Origin: Pseudomonadota bacterium
GTDB taxonomy: Bacteria > Pseudomonadota > Gammaproteobacteria > Acidiferrobacterales > Acidiferrobacteraceae
Reading direction: 5' to 3'
DNA length: 64,000 bases
Assembly (NCBI GenBank): GCA_021816625.1
Contig: JAKAXM010000004.1
Coordinates: 1 to 64,000, forward strand
Below the pieces are notes generated by a model. The model ran no database searches. It saw only the letters and a program-made list of their open reading frames with translations, and was not told the origin of the DNA. Both the position numbers and the translations under genes were made by a program. Below, piece by piece: positions 13,134 through 64,000 of the stretch (position 1 is its first letter; the number at the start of each line of letters is the position of its first letter).

Positions 13134-13202
13134 GGATGGCCCCTCGCACGCCGATCGACCGGCGCAGGGTTCATCGGCTTGGCTTCGAGGGGTCGCACCA
13201 TC

Positions 13203-14753: not shown

Positions 14754-15841
14754 AGAAACGCATGATTCTGGTCGTCATCATTCTCGCGCTGGTCTTTGGC
14801 GGGATCTTCGGCTGGAAGGCATTCGTGAATCACAAGATCCACGAGATGATGGCCGCCCGGGGCCTGCCGATCGTGACGGTCGCGACGGCGCCCGTGAGAC
14901 GAGTAGCCTGGCGTGACCGGATTCGCAGTGTCGGGAGTCTCAGCGCCATCCAAGGCGTCACCTTGACTGCCCAGCTGCCGGGCGTCGTCACGGCCATCGA
15001 TTTTCATTCCGGGGCGCGAGTGCGCGCCGGGGCCTTGCTCGTCCAGGTCAATGACCAGCCGCAGCTGGCCCAGCTTGCCTATGACCGCGCGCAAACGAGG
15101 CTTGCCTACGCCAACCTGCGCCGCACGCGACTGCTCTACCGACAAAAGGCCGCGAGCCGCGCGCAACTCGATACCGCCGTTGCTACCTATGAGGGCGCCA
15201 GGGCCCATGTCGCAGGTGACCAAGCCGCCATTCACGAGCTCGCCTTGCGTGCCCCTTTTAGCGGCGTGCTCGGTATCCGCCAAGTGAATCTTGGCCAGTA
15301 CCTAGCCCCCGGGGCCCCGATCGTGGACCTGCAGTCGGCGCACGCCCTTTATGCCGACTTTACGGTACCGCAGGCCGAAGTCCCTCGCGTGCACGTCGGC
15401 CAGAAGGTCGAGGTAAGTGTCGATGCCTTCCCTCACCGGCGTTTTGCGGGTACCGTCCATGCCATAGATGCTGCCGTGAATACGACGACCCGTAATATCC
15501 TCGTGCAGGGGGTGGTTCCCAACCCGGGCGGCGCCTTGCGGCCGGGGATGTTTGGTCGCGTCCGCCTGATCGGCACGCAGGCCCATGAGGTCACGGTGAT
15601 ACCGGCCGTCGCGATCGCCTACAACACCTATGGGGACACCGTATTTGTCGTGCGTCACCGCACGATCAAGGGCCACCCCCACCTCATCGCCGACCAAGTC
15701 GTGGTGACTGTCGGTAGCGAACGCAAGGGCTTAGTCGCGGTGACGAGTGGGCTAAAGCCCGGCGAAACCGTCGTTACGGCAGGCCAGGTGAAGCTGCGTA
15801 ACGGAATGCCCGTTGCCATCAATAACGCACTACAGCCGTAA
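14750..15841 (+). CDS. RND efflux periplasmic adaptor subunit (HlyD/AcrA family)
   Basis: A 363-residue membrane-fusion protein. Residues 1-27 form an N-terminal membrane anchor. The barrel-sandwich lipoyl halves occur around residues 64-100 (GVVTAIDFHSGARVRAG) and 165-190 (LRAPFSGVLGIRQVNLGQYL), joined by a short alpha hairpin. Beta-barrel and membrane-proximal domains follow (GMFGRVRL, IPAVAIAY). It couples the inner-membrane pump to the outer-membrane channel. It overlaps the upstream gene by four bases and precedes the pump gene by nine. Confidence 0.94.
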   Translation: MKKRMILVVIILALVFGGIFGWKAFVNHKIHEMMAARGLPIVTVATAPVRRVAWRDRIRSVGSLSAIQGVTLTAQLPGVVTAIDFHSGARVRAGALLVQVNDQPQLAQLAYDRAQTRLAYANLRRTRLLYRQKAASRAQLDTAVATYEGARAHVAGDQAAIHELALRAPFSGVLGIRQVNLGQYLAPGAPIVDLQSAHALYADFTVPQAEVPRVHVGQKVEVSVDAFPHRRFAGTVHAIDAAVNTTTRNILVQGVVPNPGGALRPGMFGRVRLIGTQAHEVTVIPAVAIAYNTYGDTVFVVRHRTIKGHPHLIADQVVVTVGSERKGLVAVTSGLKPGETVVTAGQVKLRNGMPVAINNALQP

Positions 15842-15850
15842 GGCGCCGCC

Positions 15851-18800
15851 ATGACGTTTACCGACTTTTTCATACGCCGTCCGGTCCTCGCCACGGCCTT
15901 GAGTCTCGTGATCTTCCTGCTGGGCGTACGCGCCTATGTGGGAATGACCGTACGTCAATATCCGAAGATGACCAACACGACGGTGGTCGTGACGACGGCC
16001 TATCCCGGCGCGAGCCCGCAAACCGTGCAGGGCTTTTTGACTACGCCGCTCGAACGCGTCATCGCGACCGCTCCGGGCATCGATTACATGACCTCGAACA
16101 GTGCCGAGGGCGTGTCGACGATTACCGCGTACATGAAGCTGAACTACAGTCCCAACGCCGCCGTAGCCAACATCCAATCGAAGATTCAGCAGGTCGTCAA
16201 CAAGCTCCCGGCCGGTAGCCAGCTGCCAGTGATCAACGTGACGGTCGGCGATTCGACCGACCTTATGTATATCGCTTTTTATAGCCATCACATGACCCAG
16301 CAGCAGATCACCGACTACCTGCTGCGCGTCGTACAGCCGAGCCTCGTGTCCGTGCCGGGCGTGAGTCAGGCGCAGATCGTGCCGGCGGGGACCGGGTCGG
16401 GTAATACCTTTGCCATGCGCGTTTGGCTAAACCCGGTGAAGATGGCAGCCCTGCACGTGCAACCTGCCCAGGTCGCGGCCGCTCTGGCCGCCAACAATTA
16501 TATTTCCGCCGTGGGCCGTACCCGCAACGCCAGTATGGGAGAGGTCATTCGTGCCACCACCAGTCTGTCGACCGTGCGTGGTTTCCGTAACCTGATCATC
16601 GCGCACAACGGGGCCACCCTCGTGCGCCTTAAGGATGTGGCCCGGGTCGCCCTGGGGGCCGAGGCCTATACGACGCAGGCGTTTTTCGATGGCACGACGG
16701 CCGCCTATATCGGCATCCAGCCTACCCCATCGGCCAATTCGCTCACCGTGGCCAAAGGCGTGCGCAAGGAACTCAACCGGCTCAAAGCCTCCTTTCCTCC
16801 CGCGCTGCACGCCAAGGTTCCGTACGATGCGAGCACGTATATCACCGCAGCCCTGCACGAGATTCTGACGACCATCGGCATCACGCTCGTGGTCGTGATC
16901 TGCGTGATCCTGCTCTTTTTGGGCTCCTTGCGCGCCGCCTTGATCCCCGCGATTGCGATCCCGCTGTCGATCGTCGGTGGCGGTCTGCTCATGTGGATGA
17001 TGCACTTCACTGTCAATCTCCTGACCCTGCTCGCCATCGTGCTCGCCATCGGGCTTGTTGTTGATGATGCGATCGTCGTCGTCGAGAACATCCATAGGCA
17101 TATCGAGGAGGGGCGCAGCCCCTTGGATGCCGCCGTGCTGTCGGGCCGCGAGCTCATGACCCCGATTATCGTCATGTCGACGACGCTCGTGGCCGTGTTC
17201 GCGCCGATCGGGTTCATGGGAGGGCTCACGGGCAGCCTCTTCTCGGAGTTCGCTTTTACCTTGGTTGCGGCGGTTCTGGTATCCATGGTCGTGGCCCTGA
17301 CCCTGTCCCCCATGCTGAGCGCGCGCGTGCTACGCGCAAACCCGCCGCACGGCCTTTCGCGCTTCATAGACGAACGCTTCGAGCGCCTGCGCGTGCGTTA
17401 CGATAAGATCTTGCACGGAAGCCTCGATTACCTACCGGTCACCTGGCTATTCGCCGCGGTCATGTTCGCGAGCGTTTACTTCTTGTTTACCTCGACAAAG
17501 CAGGAATTGGCGCCCCAAGAGGATCAAGGGATCATCTTTGTCGCAGGCGTTGCGCCCCCGACCGCCACCCCGCGCTATCTGCGCACCTATGGCCTGCAGA
17601 TCATCCATGATTTCGAGAAACTAAAGGTTTACGACAAGAGTTTCATGATCACGGGTTTTTCGCCGAGCGGCGCCGGTACGAATCAGATGATGGCGGGCAT
17701 GCACCTCGTGCCGTGGAACAAGCGCTCGATCAGTACCATGGAGCTTCAGCCCATCGTGCAAAAGCAGATGGCGCGGATCGCGGGTCTCCAGCTCGCCGTG
17801 TTTCAGCGGCCTTCGCTGCCAGGTTCTGCTGGCGGCCCCCCCGTACAGTTCGTTATCCAGAGCAGTGCCAGCTATAAAAAGATCAACGAAGTGGCCAATC
17901 ACCTCATCGGTATCGCGCAGCGGAGCGGGCTTTTTGCCTACGTCGCCAAGGATCTGCGCTATGACGATCCGCAGATCATACTGCATATCCGGCGCAATAT
18001 GGCCGCCGCTCTTGGCCTCAATATGCAGACGATCGCAGATAACCTGCAGCCGCTGTTAAACGGGAATTACATCAACCGTTTCGATTTGGAGGGTCGCAGC
18101 TACGAGGTCATACCGCAGGTCCCGGATCGTTTCCGGGCCGACGCCGGTATGCTCAAGAGCTTCTATCTGCAGGCGGGCGGCCACATGGTGCCCTTGTCAA
18201 CCGTGGTCTCCCTTAAGACCGCAGTGGAGCCCCAGTTCTTGCCGCAATTCGATCAGCTAAATTCGGCCACGATCCAGGCCGTGCCCATGCCGGGCGTCAC
18301 CATGGGACAGGCCTTGTCTTATCTGCGAGTCCAGGCCCACAAGATCTTTCCGCAGGGCTTTACGATCAACTACGCAAGCGAGTCACGCCAGTTCATGCAT
18401 GCCCGCTCCGGCTTGTTGGTCACGTTCTTCCTGGCGGTGCTCTTGATCTATCTTTTGTTGGCCGCCCAGTTCGAGAGTTTTCGAGATCCACTCATCGTCA
18501 TGGTCACGGTGCCTATGTCCATCAGCGGCGCCCTGATCTTTCTGAGTCTGGGCCTTGGCACCATCAATATCTATACCGAGGTGGGCCTCATCACGCTGAT
18601 CGGGCTTATCACAAAGCAGGGCATCCTGATCGTGCAGTTTGCCAACGAGGCCCAGCGCCAGGAGGGCTTGAGCAAGCGCGCGGCCGTCGAAAAGGCCTCT
18701 TCGATCCGCCTGCGCCCGATCCTCATGACGACAGGCGCCATGGTAGTCGGCGTTTTACCGCTGTTGCTCGCGTCCGGTCCTGGCGCTGCGGCACGGTTTG

Positions 18801-18943
18801 CGCTCGGTCTTGTCATCTTCACGGGTCTTAGCTTGGGCTCGCTTTTTTCCCTGTTCGTGGTGCCGGCTATCTATATGCTGCTCGGTAAAGACCACAGCCA
18901 CGACAACGCGGGCCCGGGCAACTCACAGGCGCGCTTGCCATAA
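15851..18943 (+). CDS. RND efflux pump, hydrophobe/amphiphile type (HAE1)
   Basis: A 1030-residue proton-driven exporter, the standard length for MexB/AcrB relatives. Twelve membrane helices are split by two large periplasmic loops. The helix-4 proton relay is the double aspartate in GLVVDDAIVVVENIHRH (about 404-405), which marks HAE1 rather than metal pumps. The start (FFIRRPVLATALSLVI) is typical. Probable substrates are drugs, dyes, detergents or solvents; sequence alone does not specify. A GC hairpin follows the gene. Confidence 0.94.
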   Translation: MTFTDFFIRRPVLATALSLVIFLLGVRAYVGMTVRQYPKMTNTTVVVTTAYPGASPQTVQGFLTTPLERVIATAPGIDYMTSNSAEGVSTITAYMKLNYSPNAAVANIQSKIQQVVNKLPAGSQLPVINVTVGDSTDLMYIAFYSHHMTQQQITDYLLRVVQPSLVSVPGVSQAQIVPAGTGSGNTFAMRVWLNPVKMAALHVQPAQVAAALAANNYISAVGRTRNASMGEVIRATTSLSTVRGFRNLIIAHNGATLVRLKDVARVALGAEAYTTQAFFDGTTAAYIGIQPTPSANSLTVAKGVRKELNRLKASFPPALHAKVPYDASTYITAALHEILTTIGITLVVVICVILLFLGSLRAALIPAIAIPLSIVGGGLLMWMMHFTVNLLTLLAIVLAIGLVVDDAIVVVENIHRHIEEGRSPLDAAVLSGRELMTPIIVMSTTLVAVFAPIGFMGGLTGSLFSEFAFTLVAAVLVSMVVALTLSPMLSARVLRANPPHGLSRFIDERFERLRVRYDKILHGSLDYLPVTWLFAAVMFASVYFLFTSTKQELAPQEDQGIIFVAGVAPPTATPRYLRTYGLQIIHDFEKLKVYDKSFMITGFSPSGAGTNQMMAGMHLVPWNKRSISTMELQPIVQKQMARIAGLQLAVFQRPSLPGSAGGPPVQFVIQSSASYKKINEVANHLIGIAQRSGLFAYVAKDLRYDDPQIILHIRRNMAAALGLNMQTIADNLQPLLNGNYINRFDLEGRSYEVIPQVPDRFRADAGMLKSFYLQAGGHMVPLSTVVSLKTAVEPQFLPQFDQLNSATIQAVPMPGVTMGQALSYLRVQAHKIFPQGFTINYASESRQFMHARSGLLVTFFLAVLLIYLLLAAQFESFRDPLIVMVTVPMSISGALIFLSLGLGTINIYTEVGLITLIGLITKQGILIVQFANEAQRQEGLSKRAAVEKASSIRLRPILMTTGAMVVGVLPLLLASGPGAAARFALGLVIFTGLSLGSLFSLFVVPAIYMLLGKDHSHDNAGPGNSQARLP

Positions 18944-51506: not shown

Positions 51507-52073
51507 ATGGACGCACGGGCTTGGGATAAGGGCACGCGCATCGTGCATGCGGCGCTTGCGGTAACGGTCTTGGCAGAACTCTCGACGGGTCTTATCGTGT
51601 CACGCGCCACGCGCCCGCAGTGGCTGCTCATTCATAGCGTGCTTGGATTCCTCACGCTGCTCGTGATCCTCGTCGACTGGATGTGGACCTGGGCGCGCGG
51701 CGACCTCTCGGTATTCTTCCCCTGGAATCGCCGCGGGCTGCGCCTCGTGGTCCAGGAGACCTTCGCGCTCTTCCAGGGGAAGTTGCCCGGTTATGGTAAT
51801 CGGGTGGGTTTGTCGAGCTTTGTCCATGGCATCGGCCTGCTCGCGGTCTCGGCTATGGCAGCCACCGGTCTTCTTATGGGGATCGACATACCCGGCGGCT
51901 ATGGACTGTTTGGCCACTCCTCGGCCTATGCCTCCTTCACGGTACTGGCCACCTTGCACTTATGGTTGTCTTATTTCGTATGGGCCTACCTGGGTGGCCA
52001 CCTGTTCTTTGCGGCCCTCCAGGAACTCTTCGGCAATCGTGTGCTGCGGCATTTCTCGCTCACGCGCCGTTAG
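51507..52073 (+). CDS. Cytochrome b561-type membrane protein
   Basis: A 188-residue integral membrane protein with four hydrophobic helices. Histidines in the helices (KGTRIVHAALA, LLIHSVLGFLTL, SFVHGIGLLAV, TLHLWLSYF) are placed like the haem ligands of the bacterial cytochrome b561/Ni-Fe hydrogenase b-subunit family. It probably moves electrons between quinone and a periplasmic partner. AAGGAG lies 7 bases before the ATG. It stands alone with its own promoter and a GC hairpin after the stop (52091-52112). The partner is unknown. Confidence 0.85.
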   Translation: MDARAWDKGTRIVHAALAVTVLAELSTGLIVSRATRPQWLLIHSVLGFLTLLVILVDWMWTWARGDLSVFFPWNRRGLRLVVQETFALFQGKLPGYGNRVGLSSFVHGIGLLAVSAMAATGLLMGIDIPGGYGLFGHSSAYASFTVLATLHLWLSYFVWAYLGGHLFFAALQELFGNRVLRHFSLTRR

Positions 52074-52122: not shown

Positions 52123-52152
52123 TTGACAGGGCCGGTTTATGGGCGCTAGTGT
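52123..52152 (+). promoter_or_regulatory. Candidate promoter of the Cus-type operon
   Basis: TTGACA (52123-52128) and TAGTGT (52147-52152) are separated by 18 bases. The long spacer is compatible with MerR/CueR-type control, but I see no clear dyad in it. Confidence 0.35.
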
Positions 52153-52159
52153 GCGGCCC

Positions 52160-52558
52160 ATGCCTTCGTCCCGAAAACGGCCCGTCCTGTCACACCGCAC
52201 GTGGCCTGCGCCGATTCTGCTGGCCGCCTGGTTTGCCTTTATGGGGCTTTGGCCCTTACAGGCGGCCGCTTACCGCATGGGCGCGCATATGACGGCCGCC
52301 TGCCGGATGATGCCGCGCCTCATTTCCATGACGGGCCATCATGGGCGTATCCGGGGCATCGGTGCCTGTCAAAGATTGCAATGCCGGCATCATGTCGGAC
52401 CGCGCCTAACGGCCGTAGCCCCGATCCCGGCCGTTGCGGGTCGCTCGCTTGCGGTGGCACAACCCGTGATCTTGCTGGTGATTGGCCGCCACCTCGTCGT
52501 CACCCACCCCAGCCGGGGTCCACCCCCGTATCTGCGCTTCGGCCACTTTTTGATCTAA
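52160..52558 (+). CDS. Small secreted Met/His-rich protein at the head of the Cus operon
   Basis: A 132-residue protein I do not recognise. Residues 1-38 look like a signal peptide (RTWPAPILLAAWFAFMGLWPLQAAA). Right after the presumed cut the sequence is dense in Met, His and Cys: YRMGAHMTAACRMMPRLISM, then TGHHGR and CQRLQCRHH. The C-terminal part is hydrophobic and valine-rich. It ends 64 bases before the CusC-like gene, where CusF-type copper chaperones can be found, so metal binding is plausible. It has no CusF fold motif, and the ATG lacks a clear ribosome site, so the gene call is moderate. Confidence 0.5.
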   Translation: MPSSRKRPVLSHRTWPAPILLAAWFAFMGLWPLQAAAYRMGAHMTAACRMMPRLISMTGHHGRIRGIGACQRLQCRHHVGPRLTAVAPIPAVAGRSLAVAQPVILLVIGRHLVVTHPSRGPPPYLRFGHFLI

Positions 52559-52622
52559 ATCCTCCTCGGCGTCCGTTCCGTTTCTGTCTGTTGCAGAACA
52601 TCGTCCATGCCGAGGAAACGCC

Positions 52623-53981
52623 GTGTCTCACACTGTCGAATTGCATCCCCTGGATGCGCCGTATGTAGCGATCCAGCCTGTCCGTTCCCCACCCCTCTCC
52701 ACGGGCCGGGCCCGCCCCTGCGGCCGGATGGCCGTCGGCCTCGCCATGGTGCTATCGGTGTCGCTTACGGCCGGCCCTGCCTGGGCCACTACCGTCTTGA
52801 CCCTCACCGAGGCCCAGCACTTGTTGGTGCGGGACAACCCGCGTTTGCGGGCCCTGGCGGCGCAGGCCGCGGCGTTGGCGAGCCAAGCGGTCGCCGTCGC
52901 CCAGTTGCCCGATCCACGTCTGTCGGTGGGGATCGAGAACGCCCCTTTGCCGAATCTTGCGCTCCGCCAACAGCAGATGAGCATGCTTCAGTTTGGCGTG
53001 AGCCAGTCCTTCCCTCCCTGGGGCGCCCGCACGGCCCGGCGCCATCGCGCCGACTATGAGGCCCAGGCGGCGCGGGACGGGCGGCGCGAAAAGCGTGCGG
53101 AGCTCGTCTTCGTATTGCGCAAGGCCTGGCTTGCGGCTTTATCCATCCGTGCCACCCGCAACGCGGTGGCCGCGGAGAGTCAGCTCGCGCGCGCGACGCT
53201 GCGCGCGGCACAGGCGCGCTACCGCACCGGCCGTGGCGCGCAGTATGACGTATGGCGAGCGCAACTCGCAGCCGGGGCGCTGCGCAACCAGTGGGATCAT
53301 CTGAAGGCCGATGCCGCGCAGGCCCAATTTCAGATCCGTCGCCTGCTCGCAGACCCCACGTTGCCGCCGCTCGATCCGCGCTGGCCGGTCTTGCCGCTAC
53401 CGTCGCGTCGGCGCGGGCGTCTGCGACTTTCCCATCAGCCTTCGCTACGCGCGGCTCAGGCGCAGTGGCGGGCCGGGTCTGCGGGTGTCGCGCTTGCCAA
53501 GAGCGCTTATTGGCCAGCGGTTACCGTAAGCGCGGACTATGGCCAGGATTTCTTTCCGGGTAGCCCCAACTGGCTGTCCGTTGGCCTTTCCTTTAGTTTG
53601 CCGATCTTCCCCGCAGAACGTCAGGATCAAGGCGTCGATGCCGCGCGGGCGCGCCGGCTCATGGCTCAGTACCGTTACGAGGACCGATATCTCGCCCTGA
53701 AGCGGCAGTTCGACAGCGAATATGCCCTATACACCGCGCAGTCCCGGGAGCGGGCGCGCACGGACCGGGTCCTCCTGCCTGTCGCGCGGGCGGCGTTTAC
53801 CGCCACGCTCGCCGCCTATAGCGCCGGACGTGCCTCCTTGACGGCGGTTCTACGCGCGCAGCAACGCATCCTTCGCTACACCTTGCAGTCGGTGCGTTAT
53901 CGCAAGGACGCGAGCGTGGCCGCCGCCGCGCTCGATTATCTGACGACCGAACGAGTCCGGGGGCATGGCCATGACAACTAA
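52623..53981 (+). CDS. cusC: Cus-type RND outer-membrane channel (TolC family)
   Basis: A 452-residue TolC-fold protein forming the outer-membrane exit for the copper/silver pump encoded downstream. A long N-terminus precedes a signal core (about 36-55, MAVGLAMVLS...GPAWA). TolC repeats appear as EAQHLLVRDNPRLRALAAQA (about 63) and LSHQPSLRAAQAQWRAGSAG (about 273). There is no lipobox. The GTG start has GAGGAA 7 bases upstream; an ATG at codon 36 is an alternative. The symbol is by position and similarity; exact orthology is unproven. Confidence 0.82.
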   Translation: MSHTVELHPLDAPYVAIQPVRSPPLSTGRARPCGRMAVGLAMVLSVSLTAGPAWATTVLTLTEAQHLLVRDNPRLRALAAQAAALASQAVAVAQLPDPRLSVGIENAPLPNLALRQQQMSMLQFGVSQSFPPWGARTARRHRADYEAQAARDGRREKRAELVFVLRKAWLAALSIRATRNAVAAESQLARATLRAAQARYRTGRGAQYDVWRAQLAAGALRNQWDHLKADAAQAQFQIRRLLADPTLPPLDPRWPVLPLPSRRRGRLRLSHQPSLRAAQAQWRAGSAGVALAKSAYWPAVTVSADYGQDFFPGSPNWLSVGLSFSLPIFPAERQDQGVDAARARRLMAQYRYEDRYLALKRQFDSEYALYTAQSRERARTDRVLLPVARAAFTATLAAYSAGRASLTAVLRAQQRILRYTLQSVRYRKDASVAAAALDYLTTERVRGHGHDN

Positions 53982-55236
53982 AGGGACCGCAGTTTTTTTT
54001 CTCGTGGCCGGCATGGTCGCAGGCGGCGCCGTGGTTTGGTATTTCAAATCCCCGGAGACCCATCGGGATAGGGCGGCCGCCCCCGTCCTGGCGCGGCCCA
54101 AGCCCCGGATCCTGTATTGGGCGAATCCCATGAATCCCGCCATTCACGCCGATCACCCCATGAAGGACAGCATGGGTATGCGTTATACGCCGGTCTATGC
54201 GCCGGCCAGCAGCATGGCAAGCCGTGCCCCCGCGGGGCTCGCGATCGATCCCCGCTTGCGCCAGAGTCTGGGGGTGCGGTGGGTGCGGGCGCGCTACCGG
54301 GGTATGGGGCGGACCCTGCATACGGTCGGCACCGTTGCGATCGACCAAGACCGGGTCTATGCGGTGAATCCGCACTTCTCGGGCTGGGTCGAGCACCTCG
54401 CCGTGCGGGCCGTCGGCGATCCCGTGCGGCGAGGCGAGGTCCTCGCCTGGGTCTATGCCCCGGCCCTATACGCCGCCGAGCGGGAATATCTGCTCGCTCG
54501 CGAGTCGCGGGGCCTCATGGGCGGCCGGCGCATAGTGGCGGCCGCACGAGCGCGGCTACGCTTGTTAGGACTCGACGCGAACGCGATCGACGCCCTTGCC
54601 CGCCGCGGTCACGCCGCACGTGATGTCGCAGTCGTGGCCCCGGTGTCGGGCGTGGTCACGGCATTGACCACCCGCCAGGGTGGCTATCTATCGCACCGCC
54701 ATGACTTCATGGAAATCGCCAACCTCGATAGGGTCTGGTGTAATGTCGCTTTGTATAGTGCGCAGCTCCCGTGGGTGCGCGTAGGCGACCCCGTGCAGCT
54801 CACCGTGCCGGCCTATCCGGGGCGCTCGTGGACTGGGCGCGTCGGTTTCATCTATCCCACGCTGGACGCTGCCAGCCGCACGGTCACGGCGCGTCTGAGC
54901 ATCGCCACCCATGGCGGGATGTTACGCCCCGGCCTGTACGCCGACGCGACGGTCCTTACGCACCCCCGGCGCGCGCTCGCCATTCCCACAAGCGCGGTAT
55001 TGCGGGCGCACGGCGGCGACTATGTCATGCTCGCGCGTCCGCGTGGCCACTTTCTGCCCGTGCAGGTTCTCCTGGGGCCGGCCCGCGATGGCTGGGTTAC
55101 GGTCAAGCGGGGTCTGGCGGCCGGCGCCAAGGTCGTTTACGACGCCCAGTTTCTCCTTTACTCCGAGTCGCAGTTCCAATCGGTTCGGGCGCGGATGTTG
55201 CCCGCGGCGCGGCGGTCGCTGGGGGGGCGGTCATGA
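53965..55236 (+). CDS. cusB: Cus-type RND periplasmic adaptor with heavy-metal-binding domain
   Basis: A 423-residue adaptor. An N-terminal membrane anchor (about 6-26) precedes a short heavy-metal-binding motif, YWANPMNP...HPMKDSMGMRYTPVY (about 50-80), where several Met replace the usual Cys. The barrel-sandwich halves follow (VNPHFSGWVEHLAVRAVGD at about 133 and VVAPVSGVVTALTT at about 220), then beta-barrel and membrane-proximal domains. It overlaps cusC by 17 bases and cusA by four (ATGA). It should hand Cu(I)/Ag(I) to the pump. Confidence 0.88.
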   Translation: MAMTTKGTAVFFLVAGMVAGGAVVWYFKSPETHRDRAAAPVLARPKPRILYWANPMNPAIHADHPMKDSMGMRYTPVYAPASSMASRAPAGLAIDPRLRQSLGVRWVRARYRGMGRTLHTVGTVAIDQDRVYAVNPHFSGWVEHLAVRAVGDPVRRGEVLAWVYAPALYAAEREYLLARESRGLMGGRRIVAAARARLRLLGLDANAIDALARRGHAARDVAVVAPVSGVVTALTTRQGGYLSHRHDFMEIANLDRVWCNVALYSAQLPWVRVGDPVQLTVPAYPGRSWTGRVGFIYPTLDAASRTVTARLSIATHGGMLRPGLYADATVLTHPRRALAIPTSAVLRAHGGDYVMLARPRGHFLPVQVLLGPARDGWVTVKRGLAAGAKVVYDAQFLLYSESQFQSVRARMLPAARRSLGGRS

Positions 55237-58200
55237 TCAGGGCCGTCATGCGCTGGTGTATGGGCAATCCCTCCCTCGTGATGCTCGGCGCGCTCGCCTT
55301 GTTGGCGGGCGGCCTCTACGCCGTGACGCACATCCCGTTGGAGGCGCTACCGGATATCTCCCCTACGGAGGTCATCGTCAAGACACGTTTCCCCGGCCAG
55401 GCCCCGCAGGTGGTTCAGGACCAGGTCACCTACCCCCTGGAGGCGACCCTTCAGGAGGTTCCGGGGGAGATCGCCGTACGCGGCTATTCGATGTTCGGGG
55501 ACTCTTACGTTTATGTCCTGTTTCGCAGCGGCACGCGCATCTACCAGGCCCGTAACCTCGTTCTCCAATACCTAAGCCAGGCCCAATCCCAATTGCCACG
55601 CGGCATCACGCCCGCGATTGGACCCAACAGCTCGGGCGTGGATTGGATCTACGAGTACGCGCTTACCGATTCCTCGGGAACCCGTAATCTCGCGCAACTC
55701 ACCACCTTGCAGAACTGGTCGTTGAAGTATGCCTTGCAAAGTGTGCCGGGGGTTGCCCAGGTCGCGACCCTCGGCGGCATGGTGGCGGAATACCAGGTGA
55801 TCGTAAACCCGCAGAAGCTGCTCGCCTACGGGATCACCCTGGCTCAGGTCGAGACCGCGATCAAGACCGCCAACGGCGAGACCAGCGGCTCTGTGATCGA
55901 TATGGGCCAAACGGGCTACATCGTGCGAACCTCGGGTTACATTCACTCGCTTAAGGATCTCGCTCAGACGGGCGTGGCCGTCCGCGGTGGCCTGCCTATT
56001 ACCCTGGACGACGTCGCGCGCATTCAGCGCGGACCCGAGCTTGCCAATGGTCTCGCCGAATTAAACGGCAAAGGCCCGGTGGTCGGCGGGATCGTCATGA
56101 TGGACCAAGGCGGCAATGCCGATCGGGTCATTCGGCGCATCAAGCGCAAATTGCAGGCCCTGGAGACTTCGCTGCCACCCGGGGTGCATGTCGTCACGAC
56201 CTATAGTCAGGGTCCGCTCATCGCCCGCAGCGTTCAGACCCTGGCCGGTAAACTGTTAGAGGAGGTCATCGCGGTTGCGATCATCGCGCTTGTGTTCCTT
56301 TCGCGCCTACGCTCTGCGCTCGTTGCCATCGTGGCGCTCCCCTTGGGGATGTTGGCGGCCTTTTTGCTTATGTGGGCCCAAGGCATACCCGCCAATATCA
56401 TGTCCTTGGGGGGCATAGCCGTCGCTGTCGGCGTCATGATGGATGCCGTCGTGGTCATGGTCGAGAACATGCACAAGCATATGGAGCGCGCTCCCGACAC
56501 CGATCCCTGGATCGCCGCTCACGCCGCTTCGGCTGAGGTGGGTCCCGCGCTTTTTTTCTCGCTTCTCATAATAGCCCTATCATTTCTACCGATCTTTGCG
56601 CTCGGCGGGGAAGAGGGCCGGCTCTTTGCGCCCCTTGCCTTCACCAAAACCTATGCCGTCGCGGCCGCCGCCATTATCTCCATAACCATCGTGCCGGTAC
56701 TGATGGCCTGGTTCATACGCGGGCGCATACCGGCGGAACATAAAAACCCTGTGAACCGCTTTTTTTCAGCACTCTATGCGCCCCTGATTCATCTCGCCCT
56801 AAAGGCCCCGCGGCTCGTATTGGCCGCCGCCTTCGTGCTGGCCTTGACCCTGCTCTACCCCCTCCATAGGCTCGGGTCGCAGTTCATGCCGCCTCTAAAC
56901 GAAGGATCCTTGCTGTACATGCCGGTCTTTCAAAATCCGGCGGTCTCAATCGGTGAAGTCGCCCAGGTCTTGCAGCAAACGGACCGTATCCTAAAGACCT
57001 TCCCCGAGGTCAAGACGGTGTTCGGCCAGGCCGGCCGCGCCCAGACTGCCACCGATCAGGCCCCCCTTTCCATGTTTGACACGACCGTTACCTTACAGCC
57101 CCGCAGAATGTGGCCGGCGGGCCTTAGCGAGCGCCGTCTCCAAGAAGAAATGACCGCGCGCCTCGACATCCCCGGCCTATCCGTCGTATGGACGCAGCCT
57201 ATTAAGAATCGCGTCGATATGGTCACGACCGGACTCACGACACCGCTTGGCATCAAAATCGCGGGCCCAGATCTCGCGGTACTAAATCGCCTCGGCCGGC
57301 GTCTCCAGGCTGCGCTCCAGAAGGTGCCGGGGACTGCATCGGCGTATGCCTCGCGGGTCACGGGTGGCCGTTATATCGTGATCCACACCAATCGTGCGCA
57401 GGCGGCCCGTTACGGCCTCACGGTGGCGGCCGTCAACCGGTTTGTGGCGACGGCAGTGGGCGGGCAGGCGGTTACGACCGTCGTCGCCGGGCTCAAACGT
57501 TTCCCTGTCGTGGTGCGCTTTCCTCGCCGGCTGCGCCAATCGCTGTCGGCGCTCCTGGCGGGCCGGGTGGGGGCGCCCGGGGGCGCGCAGATACCGTTAG
57601 GTCAGGTGGCAAGGATTCGCATAGAAGGCGGGCCGCCGATGCTGACAAGCGACGATGGGCGTCTCAACAATTGGATCTATATCGATCTTTCCCCGGGGAC
57701 GAGCACCAGCGGCTATGTGCAAAGAGCCAAGGAGGCGATCGCCCATAGTATGGTTATGCCGCCCGGTTACACCTTGTCGTGGGTCGGCGAATACAAGGTC
57801 ATGCAGCGGGCGCAACGGCGTCTGGAGGTGGTGGTGCCGGCCGTTATTTTATTGATCGCGCTGCTCCTTTACTTTACCTTCCGACGCTGGGTAGAGGTAG
57901 GGATGATCTTAGCGACCTTGCCTCTGTCGCTCGTAGGCGGATTTTGGCTCGTGTACGCTTTGGGCTATAAGCTATCGGTTGCCGTAGCCGTGGGATTCAT
58001 CGCCCAGGCTGGGGTCGCTGCGGAGTTCGGGGTAGTTATGCTTCTCTATCTCGATCAGGCCCTCGAGCGTCACCAGATGAGCGGTGCGCTAAAGACCTGG
58101 CATGACCTGCAACGCGCGGTGATCGAGGGGACCATGCTGAGACTGCGCCCGCTCACCATGACCATGACGCTCGTCGTCGGCGGGCTCCTTCCCATCATGT

Positions 58201-58346
58201 TCAGTGACGGGGCCGGCGCGGATGTCATGAAGCGGATCGCGGCCCCTATCGTGGGCGGCATGTTCAGTACGGCCCTGCTGGCGCTGCTCGTCATACCGGC
58301 CCTCTATACGCTCTGGCAGCGGCGACGGCTGGGCCTGCGCGCCTAA
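55233..58346 (+). CDS. cusA: Heavy-metal RND pump, CusA family (HME)
   Basis: A 1037-residue inner-membrane exporter, typical for CusA/SilA. Helix 4 carries a single aspartate in GVMMDAVVVMVENMHKH, the hallmark of metal pumps rather than drug pumps. IKNRVDMVTTGLTTPLGIKI (about 650) is the periplasmic cleft segment; its DM is shared with CusA, whereas CzcA types have NM. Substrate is therefore probably Cu(I)/Ag(I), by inference. The start at 55233 follows the ATGA overlap; the open frame upstream of it is only a shadow of cusB. Confidence 0.92.
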   Translation: MIRAVMRWCMGNPSLVMLGALALLAGGLYAVTHIPLEALPDISPTEVIVKTRFPGQAPQVVQDQVTYPLEATLQEVPGEIAVRGYSMFGDSYVYVLFRSGTRIYQARNLVLQYLSQAQSQLPRGITPAIGPNSSGVDWIYEYALTDSSGTRNLAQLTTLQNWSLKYALQSVPGVAQVATLGGMVAEYQVIVNPQKLLAYGITLAQVETAIKTANGETSGSVIDMGQTGYIVRTSGYIHSLKDLAQTGVAVRGGLPITLDDVARIQRGPELANGLAELNGKGPVVGGIVMMDQGGNADRVIRRIKRKLQALETSLPPGVHVVTTYSQGPLIARSVQTLAGKLLEEVIAVAIIALVFLSRLRSALVAIVALPLGMLAAFLLMWAQGIPANIMSLGGIAVAVGVMMDAVVVMVENMHKHMERAPDTDPWIAAHAASAEVGPALFFSLLIIALSFLPIFALGGEEGRLFAPLAFTKTYAVAAAAIISITIVPVLMAWFIRGRIPAEHKNPVNRFFSALYAPLIHLALKAPRLVLAAAFVLALTLLYPLHRLGSQFMPPLNEGSLLYMPVFQNPAVSIGEVAQVLQQTDRILKTFPEVKTVFGQAGRAQTATDQAPLSMFDTTVTLQPRRMWPAGLSERRLQEEMTARLDIPGLSVVWTQPIKNRVDMVTTGLTTPLGIKIAGPDLAVLNRLGRRLQAALQKVPGTASAYASRVTGGRYIVIHTNRAQAARYGLTVAAVNRFVATAVGGQAVTTVVAGLKRFPVVVRFPRRLRQSLSALLAGRVGAPGGAQIPLGQVARIRIEGGPPMLTSDDGRLNNWIYIDLSPGTSTSGYVQRAKEAIAHSMVMPPGYTLSWVGEYKVMQRAQRRLEVVVPAVILLIALLLYFTFRRWVEVGMILATLPLSLVGGFWLVYALGYKLSVAVAVGFIAQAGVAAEFGVVMLLYLDQALERHQMSGALKTWHDLQRAVIEGTMLRLRPLTMTMTLVVGGLLPIMFSDGAGADVMKRIAAPIVGGMFSTALLALLVIPALYTLWQRRRLGLRA

Positions 58347-59744: not shown

Positions 59745-62700
59745 TCAGTGGAGACGCGGGGCGCTACCCTTACGTTCCGAGAAGGTGGCGTAGGCAAAGT
59801 AGCCAAGCGGTATCACAAACAGCGTGAGGATCGTCGAGGCAAGCGTCCCAAAGATGAGAGATATCGCAAGGCCGCCGAATACCGGGTCCATTACCATGAT
59901 CGCCGTACCGAGCACAATGGCAAGCGCCGTAAGCATGATGGGCCGCAGTCGCACCATGCCGGCCTCAACGACGGCCTCTGTAAGCGAGTGACCACCGCGC
60001 CGGTAGTCCAGGATGAAGTCGATCAGTAGCAAAGAATTGCGGACCACGACCCCGGCGAGAGCTATGACACCGATCATAGAGGTCGCCGTAAAGTACTGGC
60101 CGAGCGCAAAGTGTCCTGGAAAGACGCCGATTATGGTAAGGGGGATCGAGCCCATGACGATGATCGGGATCATGAACGAACGATAGTATCCGACCAGGAT
60201 AATGTAAATGAGCAGGATCGCTACTCCGAACGCCGATCCGAGATCCCGGAACACGTTCAGGGTAAGCCGCATCTCGCCGCTCCAGCGCAGCCCGTAATGC
60301 TGGCTGCTCGGATCTTCCATGAAGTCCTGCTTGAGGTGAACGCCATCTATTTTGTGGTGCTTTAGATACTGCCACATATGGAGCACCGGGTAGACGGGGC
60401 TGCCACTGCTAAGTCCTGCCGTCACGTACTCCACATCGCGCCCATCCTTTTGGTAGATGGGTTTAGGGAGGGGGCGCCGTATGACGCGCACGATCGCTGA
60501 CAACGGGATCTCGCGGCCCTCGGGGTTCGTTACAAAGATCTTGCCAAGGTCGTTTGGTCCCACGTGGTCGGCGATCGGGACGCGAAACCGGATCGGTACG
60601 GGTTCCTTGGCGTGCGGGATGTGGACTGTGCCGTCACTTATGCCCGACAGGAATCCCTTGAGCGTCATGGCCGCGGCAGCTGCGCTCACTCCGTCGAGAG
60701 CAGCCTTGGTGCGGTCGACTTTAATAATGTACTGCACGGAGTTGTGCGGGACCGTGCTGTCGACGTCGGCGAGGTGGTGGCTATGGGCGAAGAGGCCGTA
60801 ACGAAGGTCGTTGGCAATGGCCTGGACCTTGCGGTAATGGGGGCCGAACACCTCGGCCATGACCGTCGCGCGTACCGGCGGGCCGGGGGGATGCTGGACG
60901 ATCTTGATCATGGCCCCGGTGCGCGCCGCAAGTCGGGTAATGGCCGGCCGCAACTCCTTTACGATGGCGATCGAAGATATTCCCCGTTCGCTTTTCCTTA
61001 CGAGATGGACCTGCATCTCGCCTACATTGGGGCCGCGTTTCAAGGACTCGCCGCGCAAAAGCCCGCTGAAATTTATGGCCCCCATGGCCCCCGCCGAGAG
61101 GTCATACGTCGTCACATAGCGATTCCGACGGACGATATTGCCAAGCGCTTCCATGATCCGGTCGGTATCTTCGAGGGTGCTTCCCGCGTGCGTACGCACG
61201 GTAATGTCGAAGCTGTTGTTGTTGTTGCGGGGCAGCATCTTGAAATTCACGAGCCGCAACACCGGCATCGCCAACACACTGGCGAACACGAGGATAAGGC
61301 CGAGCAGGAAGCCGCGCCGTAACCAAGGCCGCGACAACAGGGCGCGCATGATGCGCCGGTAGCCGCGCTGGAGTATGCCAGGACCCCGTTCGTGTCCACC
61401 CGCATGCCCCTTCAGCCACAAGCGCGCCGCCCAGGGCGCGACCGTGTAGGCGATGAACAGTGAGGTCAGCATTGCGATGGGGACGTTTTTGGGTATGGGG
61501 GCCATGTAGGGTCCCATCATGCCACTCACATAGAGCATAGGGAGGAAGGCGACGATGACGGAAAGGGTCGCCAGATTGGTAGGCCGCCCGATCTCGTTGA
61601 CCGCTGCGATTGCCTCGTGAACGCGGTCAGCGCCAGCTCGAGCGTAGTGCCGGAATATGTTTTCGATAACGACGATCGAGTCATCGACCAGCAGACCAAG
61701 GGACAGGATCAGCGCAAACAAAGTGATGCGATTGATCGTCTGACCATCGAAATAATCTATGGCCAGGGTAACGAAGAGGATGAGCGGTATGGTGATGGTG
61801 ACGATCGCCGCGGCCCGCCATCCCAGGAACAGCACGAGCAAAATAACGACGGTTCCGACGGCGATAAAAAGGTGCTCGATCAGGGTGTTGACCGCGCTAT
61901 TGGCGCGCTCGCCATCGTCGCGCGTCACATTGACGTGGACAGTGCGGGGGATGATCGTTGTGCGCAAGGCCTGTAAGCGGCGCAGGACATTGTCGGCCAC
62001 GGTCACGGCATTGGTGCCCGCGCGCTTGGCAATGGCTATCGTGACCTCGGGAACCTCGATATTGCGGGGCCGCCGATGGGCGTAGGCCGGGCCAAAGCCG
62101 ATGCTATGAACTGCTTTTATGCGTCCGGCGCCATCGGTCACCGTCGCCACGTCGCTCAAGTAGACCGGTCGGTGATCATAAAGACTCACCACGACGCGAC
62201 CCACGTCGCGCGCCGAGCGCAGCATGGTGCCGGCATGGATAGTGGCGCGGCGATTGTGATTGGTGAAGTGTCCAGATGGTATCTCTACGTTGGTGGCCTT
62301 CACGATCCTACGGATATCGTTGATCGTGACGTCATAGCGGCGCATGAGGCGAGGGTGCAGTACCACATTGATCTGGCGGCGTTGGCCGCCGATAAGGTAG
62401 GCGAGCGAGGTGCCGGGCGTGCGGCGGAGATGGTGCAGTACCGCCACGGCGATCGCGCGTAACTGTACGGCGCTCATGCGGGTGCTCGCGAGCGAAATGG
62501 TGACGATCGGCACCTCGTTGACATCAAGCGGCTGGATGATGGGCTGCTCGGTCCCAGGCGGCATGCGGTCCATATTGCTCATGATCTTGTTGTATAAGCG
62601 GACCAGCGAGGCGACGCGGTTTTCGCCGACCTGAAATTTGACCGTGACGACCCCCATGGAGTCCAAGGCCAATCCATAGGTGTGGTGAATCCCGCGCATG

Positions 62701-62960
62701 CCCCGCAATATGGCCTGCAGGGGATCGACGACGAGGTTTTTGACCTCGCGGGGATTAGCGCCGGGTTTCATGACGATGATGTTGGCGGCCGGCACGACGA
62801 TCTGCGGGTTTTCCGTGCGCGGGGTGAGTTTCAAGGCCAAGAGGCCCGCAAGTATGGCCACCACGATAATGAGTACCGTGATCTTGCTTTCGACGAAATA
62901 GCGCGTGAGTCGGCCCGATATGTTCAAGGGCTCTGCGGGGCGCGGATCAGGGGCTGCCAT
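59745..62960 (-). CDS. RND efflux pump, AcrB superfamily (third system)
   Basis: A 1071-residue inner-membrane exporter. Helix 4 has the double Asp in GLLVDDSIVVIENIFRHY. The N-terminal segment RTENPQIVVPAANIIVMKPG and the phrases SLVRLYNKIMSNMDRMPPG and VDPLQAILRGMRGI place it in a branch of RND permeases distinct from the HAE1 pump at 15851, typically carrying EEPQIVVP. AGAGGAC precedes the ATG. The mini-adaptor gene lies 17 bases upstream, and an outer-membrane channel gene precedes that. Substrate unknown. Confidence 0.92.
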   Translation of the reverse strand: MAAPDPRPAEPLNISGRLTRYFVESKITVLIIVVAILAGLLALKLTPRTENPQIVVPAANIIVMKPGANPREVKNLVVDPLQAILRGMRGIHHTYGLALDSMGVVTVKFQVGENRVASLVRLYNKIMSNMDRMPPGTEQPIIQPLDVNEVPIVTISLASTRMSAVQLRAIAVAVLHHLRRTPGTSLAYLIGGQRRQINVVLHPRLMRRYDVTINDIRRIVKATNVEIPSGHFTNHNRRATIHAGTMLRSARDVGRVVVSLYDHRPVYLSDVATVTDGAGRIKAVHSIGFGPAYAHRRPRNIEVPEVTIAIAKRAGTNAVTVADNVLRRLQALRTTIIPRTVHVNVTRDDGERANSAVNTLIEHLFIAVGTVVILLVLFLGWRAAAIVTITIPLILFVTLAIDYFDGQTINRITLFALILSLGLLVDDSIVVIENIFRHYARAGADRVHEAIAAVNEIGRPTNLATLSVIVAFLPMLYVSGMMGPYMAPIPKNVPIAMLTSLFIAYTVAPWAARLWLKGHAGGHERGPGILQRGYRRIMRALLSRPWLRRGFLLGLILVFASVLAMPVLRLVNFKMLPRNNNNSFDITVRTHAGSTLEDTDRIMEALGNIVRRNRYVTTYDLSAGAMGAINFSGLLRGESLKRGPNVGEMQVHLVRKSERGISSIAIVKELRPAITRLAARTGAMIKIVQHPPGPPVRATVMAEVFGPHYRKVQAIANDLRYGLFAHSHHLADVDSTVPHNSVQYIIKVDRTKAALDGVSAAAAAMTLKGFLSGISDGTVHIPHAKEPVPIRFRVPIADHVGPNDLGKIFVTNPEGREIPLSAIVRVIRRPLPKPIYQKDGRDVEYVTAGLSSGSPVYPVLHMWQYLKHHKIDGVHLKQDFMEDPSSQHYGLRWSGEMRLTLNVFRDLGSAFGVAILLIYIILVGYYRSFMIPIIVMGSIPLTIIGVFPGHFALGQYFTATSMIGVIALAGVVVRNSLLLIDFILDYRRGGHSLTEAVVEAGMVRLRPIMLTALAIVLGTAIMVMDPVFGGLAISLIFGTLASTILTLFVIPLGYFAYATFSERKGSAPRLH

Positions 62961-62977
62961 GATGTCCTCTCGTACGC

Positions 62978-63349
62978 TTAGCGGCCGGCGTGAATGGGGG
63001 TGCCGTCATAGATGCCGTTAAATGGCCCTAAGACCAAGGTCTCGTCGCCGGACAGTCCGCTCAGGATCTGCGCGCGCGCCGGGCTTAAGGCACCGAGCTT
63101 GATGAGCCGGAAGCGGGCACGACCATGGCGGCTCAGCACAAAGACGCCCGGTAGACCGGCCCGGATGACCACGGCATCGCGCGGGATGACGACGTCGCCC
63201 TCCCGGTCCCGGTCGAAGCGACGGTTAAGGGTGAGCGTCGGGCGGCTCACCACGGGCCGAACGGCCTTGGGTGCCGGTGCCGGGGGTTGGGCGTGGCAGC
63301 CGGTCACGATCAGCAAGGCCGCCGCGGGCCAGTAATGCGTGAGTCTCAT
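62978..63349 (-). CDS. Mini-adaptor lipoprotein of an RND pump (membrane-proximal domain only)
   Basis: A 123-residue lipoprotein: signal with lipobox IVTGC (Cys18), a proline-rich linker (about 22-35), then about 75 residues that match only the C-terminal membrane-proximal domain of RND adaptors (VVIPRDAVVIRAGLPGVFVL, FRLIKLGAL, GDETLVLGP). The lipoyl, alpha-hairpin and beta-barrel domains (around 230 residues in normal adaptors) are absent. The gene is exactly bounded by an ATGA overlap with the channel gene and 17 bases before the pump, so no missing part is hidden in another frame. It may be an internal deletion or a real minimal adaptor. Confidence 0.82.
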   Translation of the reverse strand: MRLTHYWPAAALLIVTGCHAQPPAPAPKAVRPVVSRPTLTLNRRFDRDREGDVVIPRDAVVIRAGLPGVFVLSRHGRARFRLIKLGALSPARAQILSGLSGDETLVLGPFNGIYDGTPIHAGR

Positions 63350-64000
63350 GAGGCGGGCCTGAGGGCGGGAAGCCTCGTGAGGGACAACTGTCCGCAGGCC
63401 GCTGCCAGGGCGGCGCGGTTGGCGGCGAGCGCGTAGAGGGCGGCCAGCCGGGCTTCACGGGCCTGTACGAGCCCCTGTTCCGAATTCAGCAAGTCGAGCA
63501 GGATGGTCCGGCCTTCCCCGTAGCGCACGCGCGTGAGCGCGACGGCGCGCCGGGCACGGCCAACAGTGGCGCGCGCAATGTCATAGCGGGTCAAGGCGTT
63601 CTGCATGTCTTCGTAGGCCTGTGTCACTTGGTAGCGGATGTGGGCGCGCAGGCCCGCGAGCCGGCCCGCGAGCGTTGCGGCTTGGGCGAGGAGCACCGCG
63701 GCGTGGTCCCGGTTGCGGCCCCCGTCGTAGAGGGACTTGCTGATGACGGCACCTACCGTCCAGGCGTTATGCCGGATCCCGGGAGTTTCACTAAACCATT
63801 GGGTCTGGGCCATCAGCCGGACCTGGACCGAGGAGCGATCACGCGCGGCCCGCGCGCGGGCATAGGCAGCCTTGATCTCGCCCTGCAAGGCCTTCACGTC
63901 GGGACGGTGGTCCAAGGCTTGCTGTACGTAATAGGAAAGGGGTCGGCGGGGAAGGGTACCCCGCGTAAACGCCAGGTGTGGTATGACGACCGTGACACCC
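63346..64000 (-). CDS. RND outer-membrane channel (TolC family), partial
   Basis: The C-terminal 218 residues of a TolC-family outer-membrane protein; the frame stays open to the window edge, so the 5' part lies beyond 64000. The visible portion starts at the second OMF repeat (QQALDHRPDVKALQGEIKAA), runs through SKSLYDGGRNRDHAAVLLAQ and ends with ALTRVRYGEGRTILLDLLNSEQGL, the usual last helices. It overlaps the mini-adaptor gene by four bases, so channel, adaptor and pump form one operon. Confidence 0.88.
   Translation of the reverse strand, partial: GVTVVIPHLAFTRGTLPRRPLSYYVQQALDHRPDVKALQGEIKAAYARARAARDRSSVQVRLMAQTQWFSETPGIRHNAWTVGAVISKSLYDGGRNRDHAAVLLAQAATLAGRLAGLRAHIRYQVTQAYEDMQNALTRYDIARATVGRARRAVALTRVRYGEGRTILLDLLNSEQGLVQAREARLAALYALAANRAALAAACGQLSLTRLPALRPAS

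Follow-up and report, generated by a model that had tools for sequence, protein, structure and literature searches.

Gene context of the leader

Within the window, by which we mean the whole stretch of 64,000 nucleotides that was analysed, a small open reading frame (hereafter the leader) lies ahead of genes for a Cus-type efflux system. The features of this locus, all on the plus strand, are the following.

52123-52152, plus strand: promoter-like site TTGACA-N18-TAGTGT, directly upstream of the leader (regular-expression scan)
52160-52558, plus strand: leader ORF, 132 aa (132 codons and a TAA stop codon at 52556-52558), with purifying selection on three of its four segments
52217-52273, plus strand: hydrophobic export segment, residues 20-38 (LLAAWFAFMGLWPLQAAAY), from the sequence, with a model helix at residues 17-48; pN/pS 0.14-0.24
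52274-52399, plus strand: putative Cys/Met/His sensor segment, residues 39-80, with C48xxMP and C70-X4-C75-x-H77 (leader alignment)
52400-52513, plus strand: variable linker, residues 81-118, near-neutral in sequence and retained in length
52514-52525, plus strand: RGPP arrest-type motif, residues 119-122 (alignment; arrest activity of RAPP/RGPP as described in the accessible part of PMC12992588)
52526-52555, plus strand: conserved tail at the C-terminus, PYLRFGHFLI here and PYLRFARLLI in the genus consensus, reaching the stop codon (alignment, selection)
52563-52572, plus strand: anti-Shine-Dalgarno arm of a predicted stem-loop, starting 5 nt past the leader stop codon (folding)
52607-52616, plus strand: 3' arm of the predicted stem, with the cusC Shine-Dalgarno sequence GAGG at 52612-52615 (folding)
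52623-53981, plus strand: cusC-like outer-membrane factor (TolC/OEP; PF02321), with a GTG start 7 nt past the Shine-Dalgarno sequence
53965-55236, plus strand: cusB-like periplasmic adaptor (PF16576; PRK09783-type CusB below cut-off)
55236-58346, plus strand: cusA-like heavy-metal RND permease (TIGR00914, 1030 bits, above cut-off)

A preliminary description of this DNA had seen the leader as the head of a Cus operon, which the gene order bears out: genes for an OEP, a CusB-type adaptor and a CusA/CzcA permease follow on the same strand, the first of them after a gap of 64 nt. The cusA-like ORF as listed starts upstream at 54771; its homologues start at 55236. Behind cusA lies a methyltransferase gene (PF08241, 58462-59301), which was not found in the fetched stretches of ten relatives, some of these stretches being too short to show it. 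The leader is preceded by a cytochrome b561-like gene (51507-52073, PF01292) that is kept at 7 of the 11 leader places in the genus, and the promoter-like site lies between the two genes. Two further RND-type efflux operons were present in the window (13179-18943, plus strand; 59745-63915, minus strand), and no tail-type leader was found upstream of the OEP gene of the former.

The promoter-like site fits initiation at or near the ATG at 52160, which predicts a nearly leaderless mRNA. Other possible in-frame starts of the leader ORF are at 52139 and 52151. The regular-expression scan also gave TTGAC-type/TA-type pairs at L033, L035, L036, L037 and L038, and TTGACG-N-TAgaAT/TAggAT-like sites were read by eye at L031, L032 and L034; a consensus promoter scan with a stricter rule found no site.

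Composition and family assignment of the leader

The hydrophobic segment and the model helix suggest an N-terminal signal in the leader. Behind it, in agreement with the preliminary description, 12 of the 40 residues downstream of the hydrophobic segment LLAAWFAFMGLWPLQAAA are Met, His or Cys, against a local background of 5.5% in seven neighbouring proteins (binomial p 9e-7). This enrichment was found in all ten aligned leaders, with 10 to 16 of 40 residues. The mature part of the leader is predicted to be disordered, with pLDDT below 50 for residues 42-119 in an AlphaFold model whose input was only ten sequences.

The absence of CusF similarity had also been stated before, and in our searches none of the 10 leaders had a match at curated cut-offs in Pfam or NCBIfam, PF11604 included. 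The sole Pfam rows for leaders (E 0.18 and 0.029) were to unrelated families, and the leader profile had no match among PDB sequences at E<=5. We therefore rejected CusF or another known metallochaperone as an identity for the leader. DUF2946 (PF11162) was likewise rejected, with 0 of 10 leaders matching at E<=10, 0 of 14 genus genomes above cut-off and no weak match at the leader places. An overlapping frame of 155 aa (52201-52668) had no Pfam match, and the selection signal sits in the leader frame; an open frame alone proves little here, since the +2 frame is itself stop-free in 3 of the 10 leaders. The antisense frame, which contains two stops, was rejected.

Conservation and selection within the genus

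Strong matches to the leader (E<=7e-7) were found at 11 places in 10 genomes among the 60 relatives searched, all of them within a genus of 14 genomes. Weak matches (E 0.007 to 1) and a G038 row (E 0.007, within a 546-aa frame) were treated as chance. When 57 genomes of the order were searched with the leader profile, the matches were the 10 genus genomes, G026 (E 4e-9) and one chance-looking row, and a profile scan of genome contigs gave 6 loci, apparently all among the genus loci already known. At class level the profile search found 1 of 369 genomes, the window's own; with at most 11 candidates scored per genome this search was insensitive.

The leader and the cusC-type OEP gene are present in the same 10 of the 14 genus genomes and absent from the same four, two of which are less than 90% complete. 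At 9 of the 11 leader places the OEP gene follows directly 3' of the leader, and at the remaining two (G001:C142 and G002:C27) a different ORF of 95 aa lies downstream with the same kind of stem. The OEP gene of G002 is at a contig edge with its upstream side out of view. Conservation next to cusCBA in relatives had been named as a check in the preliminary description; the frame was found in 10 of 14 genus genomes, with cusC directly behind it at 9 of 11 places. Its companion expectation, conservation of the metal-ligand positions, held for C48, M51, C70, C75 and H77, which are invariant in 10 of 10 leaders, whereas the other Met and His positions vary. Also invariant in the ten aligned leaders are P52, Q74, G80, R119, P121, P122, R126, L131, I132 as well as several positions within the export segment, and the last ~15 residues follow the genus consensus R[A/G]PPxYLRFxRLLI-stop.

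We computed pN/pS for two sets, 7 closer leaders and 9 distinct leaders. Values were 0.14 and 0.24, respectively, for the export segment, 0.40 and 0.48 for the Cys core, 0.89 and 0.94 for the linker, and 0.20 and 0.24 for the C-terminal 15 residues. The export segment, the Cys core and the last ~15 residues are under purifying selection, and the linker of ~40 residues is almost neutral. Since synonymous change occurs all through the leader tail, the tail is kept as protein. The distance from the last Cys to the C-terminus is 56-58 residues in 9 of 9 distinct genus leaders, despite a total length of 123-137, and that from the last Cys to RxPP is 42-44 residues in the same set. A linker drifting in sequence and fixed in length would be expected of a tether spanning ribosome tunnel and translocon, while a folded binder would need none.

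A predicted stem over the cusC Shine-Dalgarno sequence

The hairpin in the window folds with a z-score of -3.26, and none of 200 shuffles folded as well. For comparison across the order, 39 TolC match rows were reduced to 30 loci. L081 (truncated at a contig end) and L083 and L087 (no tail-type leader near the OEP gene) were dropped, which left 27, and the addition of L040, a second leader copy of G001 ahead of another gene, gave 28; its near copy L039 was left uncounted. Among these 28 loci from 10 genera, which are not mutually independent, at least 3/4 of the Shine-Dalgarno core was paired with the first 15 nt past the leader stop in the minimum free energy structure of 27, the exception being L104. 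The duplex of Shine-Dalgarno and anti-Shine-Dalgarno sequence outperformed 95% of the shuffled versions of this 15-nt stretch at 23 of 28 loci and failed this comparison at five. Such pairing was seen in 5 of 36 ordinary same-strand gene pairs with gaps of 40-75 nt, a control set for which 40 stretches, together about 0.76 Mb, were taken from the window's own genome and from G005 and ORFs were called crudely.

Own duplexes had an energy of -14.8 kcal/mol, compared to -10.4 after swaps among the 10 genera (mean loss 4.4), and the swap permutation gave p 0.0005, its floor, in all 50 one-per-genus draws. In these predicted duplexes the anti-Shine-Dalgarno and Shine-Dalgarno sequences covary between genera. 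Support for covariation comes from this between-genus comparison; within the genus no covariation support for the stem was obtained (RNAalifold term +0.15), because the Shine-Dalgarno side hardly varies. No known RNA element was matched in Rfam at E<=1 between 52000 and 52800.

Leaders across the order and on plasmids

Leaders ahead of OEP genes elsewhere in the order are divergent in sequence but share an export segment, a Cys cluster and a distance of 56-64 residues between the last Cys and the C-terminus. We compared the C-termini of 17 order leaders, a hand-chosen sample (L089, L092, L094, L097, L099, L101 and others are each missing from one of the two tables compiled), and counted from the end found Pro at -11 in 15, Arg at -7 in 12, Leu or Phe at -3 in all 17, Leu at -2 in 15 and Ile at -1 in 14. 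The mean between-genus BLOSUM62 score was +1.59 for the last 12 residues versus -0.60 for the preceding 38. Most leaders outside the genus have retained the Pro and the tail and lost the Arg of RxPP, so that an arrest of the RxPP type cannot be general. Four order leaders from outside the genus had no Pfam match above cut-off. A DNA pattern for the tail, which by design misses the window's own tail and tails of the L037/L038 type, was found in 9 of 57 genomes of the order, in true leaders throughout, and in 3 of 369 genomes of the class, each time in short unrelated frames.

Some loci deviated from this arrangement. L083 (3-416, G015) encodes a divergent related leader with CX4C that ends in NPARLLI, without PP near the end, and several hundred nt separate it from the OEP gene; it is perhaps a decaying or re-wired switch. 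At L087 a Cys-rich ORF of another type lies ahead of the OEP gene. L040 (5323-7106, G001:C142) and L039 (G002:C27, minus strand) carry a second leader that has diverged but shares the tail and the stem. The 95-aa ORF behind this leader has no known family and is followed not by cusC but by a gene for an exported protein in which AMxxMGMY motifs recur and a peptidoglycan-binding domain (PF01471) is present.

Plasmid searches returned 1 and 4 records (Acidithiobacillus caldus, Legionella, Methylophaga). On the megaplasmid of A. caldus SM-1 (L145, 3679-5034) an ISL3 element occupies the expected leader place, immediately before the nearest cusC relative found on a plasmid (tolC). No leader-like ORF was found in the two Legionella plasmids scanned (L146, L148), and in a third (L147) an annotated copper ATPase gene is directly upstream. 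Plasmid NZ_CP143310.1 of Methylophaga thalassica (L149, about 700-1100) encodes an exported-looking ORF rich in Cys, Met and His that ends in LFRPPISLITV. It lies 203 nt upstream of a cusC-like gene (tolC), is missing from the PLSDB gene table, and is probably another CutF/CopL-like leader.

Comparison with known metal-sensing leaders

CutF-like proteins were catalogued in 2023, and in the part of that study available to us their most frequent arrangement is upstream of RND OEP/CusC genes (PMC9973294). The same text describes that CutF needs a Sec signal, a Cys motif, a Pro-rich C-terminus and a stem-loop shielding the Shine-Dalgarno sequence, that copper is sensed during export with opening of this stem, and that an arrested product of CutF itself was not directly detectable (PMC9973294). 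By the rule set given there for CutF-like proteins, the leader with its 132 aa (123-137 in nine distinct genus leaders) stays below 150 aa, carries PP among its final 15 residues (here a PPP at positions 12-10 counted back from the C-terminus; all 9 distinct genus leaders have such a PP) and has its next same-strand gene at 64 nt, within the 1000 nt allowed (PMC9973294). A stem-loop that hides the Shine-Dalgarno sequence of the next gene is predicted here as well. The CXXXC motif of CutF is absent from the leader; CX4C is present in 10 of 10.

With CutF of Rhodobacter capsulatus (operon cutFOG) the leader has in common small size, export (predicted for the leader), a Cys motif, a Pro-rich C-terminus, the place at the operon head and a stem-loop over the Shine-Dalgarno sequence, again predicted for the leader (available parts of PMC9973294, PMC8456105). 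By its published features, as far as given in the accessible text, CutF has CXXXC, the end PPPRL with PP 3-5 residues before the end, and precedes a multicopper oxidase (PMC8456105), whereas the leader has CX4C and CxxMP, PP 10-12 residues before the end, a conserved tail, and precedes cusCBA. CruR of Bordetella pertussis (DUF2946), in the portion of its description at hand, senses copper via a CXXC motif 45 residues from RAPP, upon which the ribosome is released (PMC9426467). Both are exported, unstructured (the leader by prediction in both respects) heads of copper operons, and the 42-44 residues between the Cys motif and R[A/G]PP in the leader are close to the 45 of CruR. They differ in the Cys motif (CXXC versus CX4C), in the place of the proline motif (RAPP 3 residues from the end in CruR, R[A/G]PP 10 residues from the end in the leader) and in what follows, which is Rho termination across a gap of 162 bp with shut-off of the transporter in CruR versus a gap of 64 nt with a stem over the Shine-Dalgarno sequence here (PMC9426467, same portion). 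Arrest of CruR at RAPP was demonstrated in vitro, and when placed close to the C-terminal end of small exported proteins RAPP and RGPP caused robust, EF-P-resistant ribosome arrest in the tested contexts, with the third and fourth motif residues in the P and A sites, according to the accessible part of PMC12992588. R[A/G]PP close to the end of a small, probably exported protein is a feature of all ten genus leaders.

The arrest peptides SecM, ApdA and ApdP share this placement of R-[A/G]-P-P; their signal is protein export instead of metal. CopL (Xanthomonas/Stenotrophomonas) and CzcI (Cupriavidus), likened here by description, are small Cys/His-rich heads of metal-resistance operons and CutF-like according to the available part of PMC9973294, which gives CzcI as lacking the Pro motif. 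CusF has the place in the Cus operon and Met/His ligands in common with the leader, which has no similarity to it and is predicted to be disordered, in contrast to the CusF beta-barrel. Because CutF-like proteins before OEP genes have been reported (PMC9973294, same part), neither the mechanism nor the gene context proposed below is new in kind. From its sequence features the leader looks like a variant of the CutF-like kind, unusual compared to CutF and CruR in a conserved tail that reaches the stop codon; such a tail may already be present among the CutF-like clusters of that catalogue. Searches of the open-licence literature brought up no experiments on a leader of this kind ahead of cusCBA.

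Proposed function of the leader

We consider it likely that the leader is a cis-acting, co-translationally exported CutF-like peptide that adjusts cusCBA translation by sensing Cu(I)/Ag(I). It would probably be a disposable sensor that is read during its synthesis, not a metal carrier. The operon and the Cys/Met/His content point to copper or silver as ligand. The cusC Shine-Dalgarno sequence would be locked in the predicted stem, whose 5' arm starts a few nt past the leader stop. The nascent chain would then enter the translocon or periplasm with its Cys segment 56-58 residues from the last residue, and metal on this segment would alter the waiting time of the ribosome at the C-terminal RxPP or tail. 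If halted at the stop codon or close to it, the ribosome would cover the anti-Shine-Dalgarno arm and free the Shine-Dalgarno sequence, so that cusC and hence cusBA are switched on. Since the operon is an efflux pump, metal is most likely the on signal. The finished leader peptide would then probably be degraded.

The front edge of a ribosome lies ~16 nt beyond the P-site codon. With RGPP in arrest position (P-site codon 52520) it would thus reach about 52536, some 27 nt before the stem. When the A site is occupied by the stop codon (P-site codon 52553), it would be near 52569 and cover the partners of the Shine-Dalgarno core at 52564-52567. By this geometry, the conserved tail would place the ribosome over the anti-Shine-Dalgarno arm at the stop codon, not at RxPP.

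How metal would act on the ribosome can be pictured in two ways, each of which we put forward tentatively. In TnaC the ribosome is held at the stop codon for tryptophan. By analogy, the decisive arrest might occur at termination, the tail P-x-[YH]-[LI]-R-x-x-x-L-L-I holding the ribosome at the stop when the Cys segment is metal-bound; such an arrest is favoured by the retention of the tail as protein, beyond the RxPP arginine, and is a possibility that we regard with some doubt. Conversely, a metal-free ribosome might arrest at RxPP, ~27 nt before the stem, and leave the stem shut until metal frees it to reach the stop codon and open the stem by translational coupling, as in a CruR-like release. 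RxPP in 10 of 10 genus leaders, the geometry of stem and stop codon and the spacing of 42-44 residues between Cys and RxPP, near the 45 given for CruR in the available part of PMC9426467, favour such a release. It leaves unexplained, however, why conservation at the protein level extends over the 9-10 residues past PP, and why these are more widespread than the Arg of RxPP, and we hold it to be conceivable and no better than doubtful.

The preliminary description had suggested a new periplasmic copper-binding protein at the place of CusF. Export, richness in ligands and the position at the head of the Cus operon stand, while the role as a mature metal binder is probably wrong, given the arrest-type motif and tail, the neutral and length-locked linker, the predicted disorder and the stem that sequesters the Shine-Dalgarno sequence behind the stop. 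A mature periplasmic Cu(I)/Ag(I) binder that hands metal to CusBA in place of CusF would agree with the exported, ligand-rich segment conserved in 10 of 10 leaders and with the operon neighbours, and the chaperone place is vacant, as none of the 14 genus genomes yielded a CusF gene (PF11604). We nevertheless regard it as unlikely, since the strongest late constraint is on the C-terminal tail and not on a ligand site, the linker is neutral and length-locked with disorder predicted from ten sequences, the anti-Shine-Dalgarno arm is fixed at the stop codon and the PP/tail end resembles that of an arrest leader. The leader might in addition serve as a free binder in the periplasm. Attenuation or simple translational coupling, in which any ribosome at the stop opens the stem, the peptide matters little and metal control is transcriptional, would follow from the stem position by itself and suit the promoter-like site ahead of the leader, but is very unlikely in view of the invariant Cys and the purifying selection on Cys core and tail.

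Significance

The usual explanation for metal-efflux operons invokes transcription factors, among them CueR and CusRS. If the proposed leader function is true, pump production would be timed by an incomplete protein that detects metal beyond the cytoplasm, and the unannotated 'hypothetical secreted protein' before many cusC genes would become a regulatory element. In the available parts of the cited literature, experiments are tied only to the cases of CutF, CruR and CopL (PMC9973294, PMC9426467), and a cusCBA leader with a fixed geometry of stop codon and anti-Shine-Dalgarno sequence therefore offers a simple test bed. Small ORFs rich in Met, His and Cys at operon heads should not be taken as metallochaperones without caution. 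If arrest at termination is true, the leader would represent a metal-gated stop-codon switch for Cus efflux pumps that is kept across the order even where RxPP is missing.
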